From NCBI RefSeq assembly GCF_040218225.1, contig NZ_JAVJQO010000006.1, positions 1 through 64,000 of the forward strand: a stretch of 64,000 nucleotides of DNA, read 5' to 3'. Below the pieces are notes generated by a model that made no database searches, was not told where the DNA came from, and was given only the letters and a program-made list of their open reading frames with translations. Position 1 is the first letter of the stretch. Every line of letters starts with the position of its first letter. Shown here piece after piece: positions 1-1,052 of this stretch. This stretch comes from Gracilimonas sp. GTDB taxonomy: Bacteria > Bacteroidota > Rhodothermia > Balneolales > Balneolaceae. The position numbers were made by a program, and so were the translations under genes.

Positions 1-306
1 GTTCATGATTTGAGGTCCTTCGTGTTACCTATCCCCGCCCTTCGCTATCTACCACGCACTCAGGATGACAACTTTAGAATTATTTAAAAATTGAAGGTAT
101 AAAATCATAGTTGCAAGACTTAGCTAAGGACTGGTATTCATAAAGCCATTCCACCCAGTGTCATCCTGAGTGAAGAGATTTTACAAGAGTATCGTTGGGT
201 ATCGCGAAGGATCTCATCGTCAGACAGAGCAGCCAGTTCATGATTTGAGGTCCTTCGTGTTAACTGTCCCCGCCCTTCGCTAATCCCCACACACTCAGGA
301 TGACAA
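1..306. repeat. 306-bp direct repeat, copy 1 (GIY-YIG-associated repeat)
   Basis: This segment recurs almost base for base at 747-1052, an offset of exactly 746. It consists of the last 71 bases of a 190-bp unit (1-71), a 45-base A/T-rich spacer (72-116) and a full 190-bp unit (117-306). No credible gene lies in it; open frames on either strand are by-products of the repeat. It sits directly upstream of the GIY-YIG gene and probably continues leftwards beyond the window. Confidence 0.9.
117..306 (+). repeat. 190-bp palindromic unit A
   Basis: This is the first of three 190-bp units. It opens with 27 bases equal to the last eight codons and stop of the GIY-YIG gene (DLAKDWYS-stop) although no gene precedes it here. 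An outer inverted repeat follows, GTCATCCTGAG at 160-170 against CTCAGGATGAC at 294-304. An inner near-perfect pair lies inside it, CGAAGGATCTCA at 204-215 against TGAGGTCCTTCG at 245-256. The arms nest, so single-stranded DNA or RNA could fold into a long two-tier hairpin. Confidence 0.85.
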
Positions 307-363
307 TTTTCGGGTGTTTTAAAAAAGCCTGTAAGGAATTCACCTGTAATTGCTCTAACAATC

Positions 364-654
364 ATGGGTAAATCATACTATGTATACATATTGAGCAACA
401 ATTCCAGAATGCTTTACACCGGAATGACTAATGATCTCCAGCAAAGAGTTTATCAACATAAACAAAAGCAGGTTAGCGGCTTCACCAAGAAATATAACCT
501 TTATAAATTGGTGTATTATGCCGAAACAGACGATGTTGGATATGCTATCCGAAGAGAAAAGGAAATAAAAGGTTGGAGCCGAAAAAAGAAGAAGGAATTG
601 ATTGAAAGTATCAACCCTGAATGGAGAGACTTAGCTAAGGACTGGTATTCATAA
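364..654 (+). CDS. GIY-YIG nuclease family protein (UPF0213/YhbQ-like size)
   Basis: A 96-residue single-domain GIY-YIG protein. The family cleaves DNA with one metal-dependent active site, and small stand-alone members are mostly uncharacterised. The first strand motif is YYVYIL at residues 5-10, followed by YTG at 18-20. The conserved Arg28 and His32 lie in the first helix, and the metal-binding Glu65 in RREKEIKGW. All expected catalytic positions are present, so the protein is probably active. The gene is embedded in its own repeats: its last 27 bases begin a 190-bp unit that recurs twice without the gene. This suggests nuclease and repeat move or amplify together, by analogy with RAYT/REP pairs. 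That link is inference. Confidence 0.9.
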   Translation: MGKSYYVYILSNNSRMLYTGMTNDLQQRVYQHKQKQVSGFTKKYNLYKLVYYAETDDVGYAIRREKEIKGWSRKKKKELIESINPEWRDLAKDWYS

Positions 655-817
655 AGCCATTCCACCCATTGTCTTCCTGTGCGAAGAGATTTCATGCAGG
701 CATCGTTGGTTGTCGCGAAGGATCTCAATGTCTGACAGGGCAGCCGGTTCATGATTTGAGGTCCTTCGTGTTACCTATCCCCGCCCTTCGTTATCTACCA
801 CGCACTCAGGATGACAA
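628..817 (+). repeat. 190-bp palindromic unit B, overlapping the 3' end of the GIY-YIG gene
   Basis: This copy starts inside the GIY-YIG coding sequence and supplies its stop codon. The left outer arm has decayed (GTCTTCCTGTG instead of GTCATCCTGAG). The right arm and the inner CGAAGGATCTCA / TGAGGTCCTTCG pair are kept. Its final 71 bases are also the start of the second 306-bp direct repeat. Confidence 0.85.
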
Positions 818-1052
818 CTTTAGAATTATTTAAAAATTGAAGGTATAAAATCATAGTTGCAAGACTTAGCTAAGGACTGGTATTCATAAAGCCATTCCAC
901 CCATTGTCATCCTGAGCGAAGAGATTTTACAAGGGTATCGTTGGGTATCGCGAAGGATCTCATCGTCAGACAGGGCAGTCGGTTCATGATTTGAGGTCCT
1001 TCGTGTTACCTATCCCCGCCATTCGCTATCTACCACGCACTCAGGATGACAA
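747..1052. repeat. 306-bp direct repeat, copy 2
   Basis: Near-identical to 1-306, including the 45-base spacer (818-862, matching 72-116) and a complete 190-bp unit. The two copies bracket the GIY-YIG gene. They could support deletion or amplification of the intervening cassette by homologous recombination. Confidence 0.9.
863..1052 (+). repeat. 190-bp palindromic unit C
   Basis: Third full unit. It again begins with the codons for DLAKDWYS-stop without a gene in front, and has both outer arms intact (GTCATCCTGAG and CTCAGGATGAC). The remaining stretch up to the TonB receptor gene (1053-1219) shows no gene and must hold that gene's promoter. No consensus element stood out there. Confidence 0.85.

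Follow-up and report, generated by a model that had tools for sequence, protein, structure and literature searches.

Small GIY-YIG nuclease genes flanked by GTC-headed hairpins: a candidate enzyme partner for the CGTC REPs

Introduction

Why should a small nuclease gene lie among three copies of a nested palindrome? The question is raised by the first kilobase of a 64,000-nucleotide stretch of Gracilimonas sp. DNA (contig NZ_JAVJQO010000006.1, positions 1 to 64,000; hereafter the window). A partnership of enzyme and palindrome is known from the REPtron, in which GTAG REPs go with a Y1/HUH tyrosine transposase, the RAYT. A preliminary description of the window, made from its letters alone, proposed that the same logic applies here with an unrelated GIY-YIG enzyme.

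Few bacterial repeats are as well known or as widespread as REPs, and the CGTC REPs form one of their two large superfamilies. In the accessible sections of the paper by Di Nocera, De Gregorio and Rocco 2013 (PMC3733652), the CGTC superfamily was described without a dedicated transposase, and no tyrosine transposase flanked by CGTC repeats was found. The main text of a 2025 REP survey of bacteria and archaea (PMC12306157) holds no words beginning with nuclease, transposase, RAYT or GIY. We found no link between a GIY-YIG enzyme and CGTC REPs in the open full text of PubMed Central, a collection that leaves most subscription papers and all of bioRxiv outside.

Results

The preliminary description of three 190-bp units around a GIY-YIG gene, each with an outer and an inner inverted pair, was confirmed: the blocks lie at 117-306, 628-817 and 863-1052, with the gene at 364-654 among them. 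The features are as follows.

1..69, no strand: partial dimer copy at the contig edge, the remainder being on contig C8 (141-base overlap)
117..143, plus strand: detached copy of the gene's last 27 bp, head of block 1 (117-306)
160..304, no strand: palindrome dimer copy 1, head-to-head, left of the gene, GTC...GAC
364..654, plus strand: type-A GIY-YIG nuclease gene, 96 aa, ATG start, single domain (PF01541 match, AlphaFold2 model)
628..654, plus strand: the intact gene's own last 27 bp, head of block 2 (628-817)
671..815, no strand: palindrome dimer copy 2, head-to-head, right of the gene
863..889, plus strand: detached copy of the gene's last 27 bp, head of block 3 (863-1052)
906..1050, no strand: palindrome dimer copy 3, head-to-head

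Compared with the third block, copy 1 is identical at 176/190 positions and copy 2 at 174/190. In each block the gene's last 27 bp are followed, after a short spacer, by a head-to-head palindrome dimer of 145 bp, which reads GTCATCCTGAG...CGAAGGATCTC...GAGGTCCTTCG...CTCAGGATGAC with GTCAT heads. The outer pair (GTCATCCTGAG / CTCAGGATGAC) and the inner pair (CGAAGGATCTC / GAGGTCCTTCG) were found in the blocks, the left outer arm of copy 2 having two mismatches; the copies carry TGTC at the head and CTC after the inner arm, and the arms stand about 45 nt apart. When folded as single-stranded DNA, units 1, 2 and 3 gave z values of -3.7, -2.2 and -3.2, and dinucleotide shuffles folded as well in 0, 3 and 1 of 200 cases, respectively.

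The source genome comprises 3.54 Mb in 11 contigs, and the window begins at the end of contig C6. A 164-bp unit had 12 matches genome-wide, 4 of them in the window and 1 at the overlapping end of C8. Three more surround a small GIY-YIG gene at C8:874 kb, one lies about 0.9 kb from a small GIY-YIG gene at C8:888 kb, and three are distant from any type-A gene (C8:658.9 kb; C6:95.6 and 96.1 kb). A chance arrangement of gene and repeats is excluded. The last 141 bases of C8 are identical to the first 141 of C6, and in two relatives (G006 and G008) the DUF72 gene found at the end of C8 directly adjoins the TonB-receptor gene found at window position 1220 (names by Pfam). Because these two genes are neighbours there, the array probably bridges C8 and C6, which probably join here, the assembly having broken inside the repeat.

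The product of ORF 364-654 matched PF01541 (GIY-YIG) over most of its length (E 5.5e-15); this was its sole match, and no Y1/HUH tyrosine transposase domain was detected in it. In an alignment of 74 type-A sequences, as we call the family of this gene, Y18, G20, R28, H32, E65 and N84 were among the invariant residues, and Y8 was conserved at 90% or more. Residues like these are catalytic in GIY-YIG enzymes, and the match and alignment together place a GIY-YIG domain with putative catalytic residues in the window protein. Its AlphaFold2 model was confident (mean pLDDT 92.7). In a Foldseek search of the PDB, the UPF0213 protein 1zg2 was the only match at E <0.001 (E 5e-5), followed by 1ywl (E 0.024) and then by Slx1 entries (E 0.07-0.19, probability 0.96-0.99), so that the UPF0213/YhbQ and Slx1 proteins are the nearest structures. 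Slx1 is a branched-DNA nuclease. A profile built from the 74 proteins scored the type-A genes of the window's own family at 88.8-148.9 bits and the other small GIY-YIG genes of that set, including those that we labelled YhbQ-like by our own reading, at no more than 58.5 bits, which by sequence sets type A apart as a family of its own.

The genome contained 11 PF01541 matches, of which nine were small type-A genes; the other two sit in open frames of 619 and 289 codons. We scored the left flank of each of the nine genes against the right flanks of all nine. A gene's own pair scored 27-516, whereas other combinations mostly scored about 20, and values of 58-94 off the diagonal occurred only between three pairs of related genes. 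For seven of the nine, the gene's own two flanks were the best match. The repeat heads vary by gene (GTCATCCTGAGCGAAG, GTCATCCTGAGGAATG, GTCATCGCGAGGAG, GTCATGCTGAACTTG, GTCATTCC..GGAATC and GTCATTCTGAGGGTACC), and among these nine genes of one genome only closely related ones share a repeat. The two exceptions scored higher with the flank of a sister gene: L050:2540 (27 with its own flank, 58 with the sister's) has no clear repeat pair of its own, and L054:8408 scored 75 and 94, respectively.

At the type-A loci of the own family, the own right flank ranked first in 35 of 53. A direct repeat spanning the gene with a score of at least 60 was present at 38/52 loci vs 10/480 random 300-bp stretches from the same loci, and absent at that score from the remaining 14/52. 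This test was dropped as specific evidence, since other small GIY-YIG genes also scored (14/26), many through duplicated tRNA ends. A strict hairpin test was positive at 18/52 own-family loci, with 0.84 hairpins per kb near the gene vs 0.10 per kb far from it; wide-arm palindromes like those of the window are missed by this test.

To look beyond the family, we scanned 84,980 species genomes with the type-A alignment, using protein alone, and took the best 80 of 581 confirmed loci. Hosts among these 80 include Bacteroidetes, several proteobacterial classes, Chloroflexi, Omnitrophota, Planctomycetes, Nitrospinae, Elusimicrobia, Mesoaciditogaceae, Verrucomicrobia, Oscillospiraceae and others; one of the 80 (L110, a Balneola sp. 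EAC52 record contained in G004, a genome of the own genus) is identical in sequence to a locus of the own genus (L075). Strict detection of whole dimers had missed many units and was replaced by detection of single hairpins with a perfect 8-bp stem and a GTC head. Within 500 bp of the gene we found 168 such hairpins (2.17 per kb), and more than 1 kb away 26 in 268 kb (0.097 per kb), a 22-fold difference in density. The difference was 9-fold when non-coding DNA alone was considered (116 hairpins in 29.3 kb, or 3.95 per kb, near the gene vs 15 in 35.8 kb, or 0.42 per kb, far from it). Among the 77 loci with two usable flanks, three of the 80 being left out for short flanks, 59 had at least one GTC hairpin and 39 had one on both sides.

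The order of the parts recurs as well. With a 7-of-8 stem rule and a 450-bp limit, the innermost hairpins of the 80 loci were most often arranged as hairpin(+)-gene-hairpin(-) (25 loci), that is, as terminal inverted repeats around the enzyme gene, followed by (-)gene(+) at 8, (+)(+) at 8 and (-)(-) at 2; 24 loci had a hairpin on one side and 13 had none within 450 bp. The window itself has whole dimers on each side. In simple loci, 35-50 bp separate the start of the upstream hairpin from the start codon, and the downstream hairpin follows the stop codon after 4-20 bp. The Oscillospiraceae locus had no hairpin within 450 bp, and the Verrucomicrobia locus had no convincing REP.

As controls, we searched within 500 bp of 19 other small GIY-YIG genes (17 loci) of the own-family set and found 0 GTC hairpins; 0/7 YhbQ-like genes had one within the same distance, and 8 UvrC loci had none. 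These zeros are weaker than they look, because these stretches lacked distant hairpins too (0 in 131 kb) and most of the UvrC sequence is coding. YhbQ-like genes thus differ from type A both in profile score and in lacking GTC hairpins nearby.

A second group of small GIY-YIG genes, mostly of 80-95 aa, lies downstream of tRNA genes (Leu, Met, Gly-GCC and Pro) at loci L023, L025, L028, L031, L033, L037, L062, L065, L066, L070, L071, L076, L083, L092, L096 and L108. ARAGORN found a tRNA at 16/17 loci of this group vs 0/7 YhbQ-like loci. At several of them the 3' half of the tRNA and its terminator are duplicated on both sides of the gene, the protein subgroup seems to match the tRNA species, and some genes stand in tandem (G002:C37 and G021:C4). 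These genes are possibly tRNA-directed selfish genes.

We then asked whether the hairpin sequence goes with the enzyme. At the 41 loci with both hairpins, the left and right hairpins of one locus were 0.874 similar vs 0.664 between loci, and none of 10000 permutations was as high. Across 61 loci (6 of the 80 had been removed by protein length and 13 more for having no hairpin), protein identity correlated with hairpin similarity (Mantel r = 0.568, Spearman; 0/2000 permutations as high). Pairs from different phyla taken by themselves (1137 pairs) gave r = 0.623 against a permutation maximum of 0.320, the groups being labelled from record titles, with Chlorobi, Ignavibacteria and 'Deltaproteobacteria' kept separate and two bacteria each alone. 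Because the between-phyla pairs give this value, shared host taxonomy is unlikely to cause the correlation: hairpin sequence follows protein sequence even between phyla. The association that the preliminary description had proposed to look for elsewhere is thus present in other phyla, with the hairpin class following the protein, and its analogy with RAYT/REP is supported. Its unit needs redrawing. The palindromes stand, and the general unit is a GTC-headed hairpin, often in head-to-head pairs, in place of the local 190-bp block.

How do these hairpins compare with the CGTC REPs, as characterised in the accessible parts of the published descriptions? Among the 168 hairpins near type-A genes, C or T precedes GTC in 154 (GTC itself was required by the search), the stem begins with AT in 145 (8-bp stems were likewise required), and the CCA tail of the CGTC REPs is present in 106, the rest having mainly CTA, CTC, CTG or CTT. 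Both are multicopy and form head-to-head pairs, as in the GTC...GAC dimers of the window with their 12 genome matches, and their hosts overlap (rhizobia, sphingomonads, Azospirillum, Neisseria and Bacteroidetes). The window dimers differ in the spacing of their arms: CGTC REPs carry an unpaired CGTC or TGTC tag and a stem of 8-9 bp that begins with AT, and have loops of 4-5 nt. Judged by sequence, the hairpins near type-A genes largely fit the CGTC REP superfamily. We also observed, in a Neisseria gonorrhoeae record (L193, NZ_CP119142.1; 2.17 Mb, labelled plasmid), a type-A-like GIY-YIG match among nine GTCATTCCC-type hairpins within about 500 bp.

Next, we surveyed whether gene and repeat occur in the same genomes. 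Each of two surveys used one repeat class, distinct from the window's own 190-bp unit, and counted related genomes as independent, which bears on every p value below. The own-phylum survey covered 296 genomes, with type A called at E <=1e-19; Balneola belongs to Bacteroidota in GTDB and to Balneolota in the NCBI taxonomy. Type A was present in 129/296 genomes and one REP class in 47/296. The gene occurred in 40/47 repeat-positive vs 89/249 repeat-negative genomes (p 3e-10), in 30/32 genomes with three or more repeats and, outside the own family, in 22/28 vs 76/232 (p 5e-6).

The second survey covered 297 genomes of the order of Rhizobium oryziradicis (Hyphomicrobiales in NCBI, Rhizobiales in GTDB) with another repeat class. 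Type A was present in 164/297, and the association was modest: the gene occurred in 66/90 repeat-positive vs 98/207 repeat-negative genomes (odds ratio 3.1, p 4e-5), and for genomes with at least ten repeats the difference was not significant (23/32 vs 141/265, p 0.059). That the repeat is not equally common without the gene therefore holds in the own phylum and is less clear in the Rhizobium order. In that order, 9/32 genomes with at least ten repeats had no gene; seven of these nine had no match even at E 0.001, and two had weaker matches with no flanking hairpins. Divergent genes were considered as the cause of such genomes and rejected: of 31 repeat-positive gene-less genomes in both surveys, 11 were re-searched, and four matched up to E 0.001, none with a flanking GTC hairpin pair. 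A composition artefact was rejected as well, the backwards-read control patterns giving 0 in the rows examined. Genomes carried up to 42 (own phylum) and 88 (Rhizobium order) pattern matches and from none to ten type-A copies, some with internal stop codons in both surveys. The repeats thus survive the gene or get away from it, as is possible for non-autonomous copies, but repeats with a mover of their own would give the same picture.

Finally, we examined the ends of the element and its orthologous sites. The ends are sharp: in an alignment of Rhizobiaceae elements, similarity starts at CGTC upstream (four sequences) and stops at GAC downstream (six sequences), which makes three independent places upstream and five downstream, since L195 and L197 are one site in two Shinella. 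One sequence (L192) has an extra base in its last arm. In Azospirillum lipoferum 4B, a dimer-gene-dimer lies between sufB and sufC; 11 other Azospirillum records listed among the 23 matched had both flanks with a much shorter spacer, and the four suf spacers that were read held no insert. In Sinorhizobium meliloti Ak57 the gene has next to it a pair of hairpins with the 3' end of a second gene copy between them, and Sinorhizobium K101 (96% identical) lacks both gene copies at that site and shows only collapsed palindromes; when 100 kb of each strain were compared, only two collinear pieces came out near the known locus, with no further insertion.

In Sphingobium strains TomMM7A, TomMM15 and TomTYG46, fnrL and a response-regulator gene are separated by a hairpin-gene-hairpin. 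At this site TomTYG64 (89% identical) carries a bare CGTC-stem-loop-stem-GACG, as does TomTYG74 (92%) in imperfect form, as though all between the two left arms were missing, and TomTYG72 (91%) has no palindrome. The two-headed palindrome may be read as a loss between arms or as a pre-insertion target, and both readings fit. The most precise pair of sites, inspected for a target-site duplication, has an 8-bp direct repeat that belongs to the palindrome itself. Within the own genus, G001 and G007 lack the solo dimer of C8:873130, and the window array is missing at the orthologous site in G006 and G008. At the window site the spacer of G005 is longer and contains other repeat-like sequence, with no type-A hairpin, and G001 has other repeats in the stretch before the receptor gene.

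The absence from orthologous sites in relatives, which the preliminary description had proposed to check, was thus found in the own genus and in Sphingobium. The Azospirillum suf and own-genus sites were set aside as exact empty sites, being too drifted for base-exact ends, and the other empty sites, in two Sphingobium and in Sinorhizobium K101, hold a palindrome, so that no insertion into an undisturbed target was seen among the sites compared. No listed relative matched both flanks of the Rhizobium CIAT894 locus. At the Shinella site at least ten listed relatives lacked the gene by annotation or match, and the spacer was read in PSBB067.

Among the scanned loci, which excluded L207-L210, only six strict matches to two-headed GTC-stem-loop-stem-GAC palindromes were found, and two of these are of a different type (GTCAAACTGC, in L023 and L031). 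Loci with two-headed palindromes are L273 (1267), L274, L204, L126 (3714), L131 (3290) and L136 (3435). Three of them, at L273, L274 and L204 (the last two imperfect), occupy places where the gene is present in relatives and are possible scars or target sites. Separately, at L222 4088-4540 (G001:C1, about 329.4-329.8 kb), a Y1_Tnp ORF (PF01797, E 3.2e-23) lies among GATGCCGTAAACGACTCGCTTG... repeats in a RAYT-like arrangement.

Discussion

Taken together, we think it probable that gene and palindromes make up one mobile unit, a GIY-YIG counterpart of the REPtron. On the best reading of these data, type-A GIY-YIG genes are the missing partner of the CGTC REPs, and hairpin-gene-hairpin is the autonomous form. 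The likeness to the REPtron extends to an enzyme gene flanked by matched palindromes, to several enzyme-specific repeat families per genome and to gene-less dimers dispersed in the manner of REPINs; the differences are a GIY-YIG enzyme instead of an HUH one and a GTC tag instead of GTAG.

We propose the following scheme. The basic element would be about 0.4 kb long and consist of a (C/T)GTC-hairpin, about 40 bp, a single-domain GIY-YIG gene of 90-105 aa, about 10 bp and the first hairpin again in inverted orientation, each enzyme clade having its own hairpin sequence. The enzyme, with a fold like that of Slx1, would recognise its own hairpin, either extruded or on the lagging strand, and cut it, and repair or replication would then copy the hairpin-bounded unit elsewhere, especially into palindromes sharing its arms. 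What we observe is linkage of gene and hairpin, local enrichment, a recurring architecture, sharp ends, co-divergence and patchy presence at orthologous sites. That the enzyme cuts its own hairpin and that cutting drives copying, we infer from the GIY-YIG domain, the Slx1-like fold and the analogy with RAYT. Internal deletion of the gene would give head-to-head hairpin pairs; such gene-less pairs, dispersed as non-autonomous copies, would be the CGTC REPs, and the window dimers would be pairs still joined to 27 bp of the gene end. REP dimers in general may derive from the gene-bearing unit in this way. The preliminary suggestion that the repeats are spread or maintained by a GIY-YIG nuclease is accordingly worded here as a proposal: the nuclease may do so. 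Whether all this amounts to a new class of self-mobile DNA, about 0.4 kb in size, that encodes as its sole protein a GIY-YIG nuclease of one domain directed at the hairpin ends of the element, and that has the CGTC REPs of many phyla as its non-autonomous offspring, seems to us evenly poised.

Free-standing GIY-YIG homing endonucleases are self-serving genes at preferred sites. Type-A genes share with them the catalytic domain and that habit, and differ in having a single domain, of 96 aa in the window, with no visible DNA-binding extension and in being flanked by their own inverted hairpins, whereas a homing endonuclease interrupts a host gene or intron. The gene might nonetheless behave like one: the REPs would be pre-existing sequences spread by another agent, with no role beyond providing the cutting site and the homology arms, and the gene would copy itself into the cut palindrome by break repair without moving the REPs. 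The bare two-headed palindrome in two Sphingobium strains, at the site where relatives carry hairpin-gene-hairpin, fits this account, insertion being at least as simple there as loss, as do the persistence of repeats in genomes without the gene and the small GIY-YIG group that adjoins tRNA genes, which resembles site-directed insertion. We regard it as unlikely, however, given that dimers joined to or enclosing gene-end remnants (in the window and in S. meliloti Ak57) suggest that some REP dimers came from a gene-bearing unit, and that a hairpin class tracking the enzyme clade across phyla is hard to square with an independent mover of REPs. The sites without any palindrome, in TomTYG72 and at the window site in G006 and G008, also speak against it, though the earlier state of those sites may differ.

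The gene could instead be a resident one, coding for an Slx1-like enzyme domesticated to trim or resolve REP cruciforms, with the nearby REPs regulating its expression or kept as its substrate. Slx1 is among the nearest structures, at weak E-values, and the hairpins lie near the start and stop codons, but a resident enzyme would hardly be so patchy (129/296 and 164/297 genomes) or vary from none to ten copies per genome, have stop codons in some copies and be absent from orthologous sites; we consider this quite improbable. Least probable, in our view, is hitch-hiking, in which REP-rich intergenic regions tolerate insertions and accumulate small selfish genes while the REPs are mobilised in trans, for example by a RAYT. 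The intergenic site at C8:871-877 kb has a GIY-YIG element in G000 and a Y1_Tnp (IS200-like, PF01797) ORF with a different repeat family in G001 and, because it holds these different elements, suggests that some sites are shared hot spots. Yet left and right repeats pair within one genome, order and spacing recur across loci, other small GIY-YIG genes lack hairpins, and the accessible part of PMC3733652 reports no tyrosine transposase flanked by CGTC repeats.

We thus favor a mobile unit of gene and palindromes, and the type-A GIY-YIG family is a strong candidate for the enzyme of the CGTC REPs, with a prediction for each clade of the hairpin that it recognises. This makes an open question testable with one purified small protein and synthetic hairpins. 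If the proposal is true, the pairing of REPs with an enzyme has evolved more than once, from unrelated enzymes, and GIY-YIG would be a new kind of transposition enzyme beside DDE, HUH, serine and tyrosine recombinases and Cas1.
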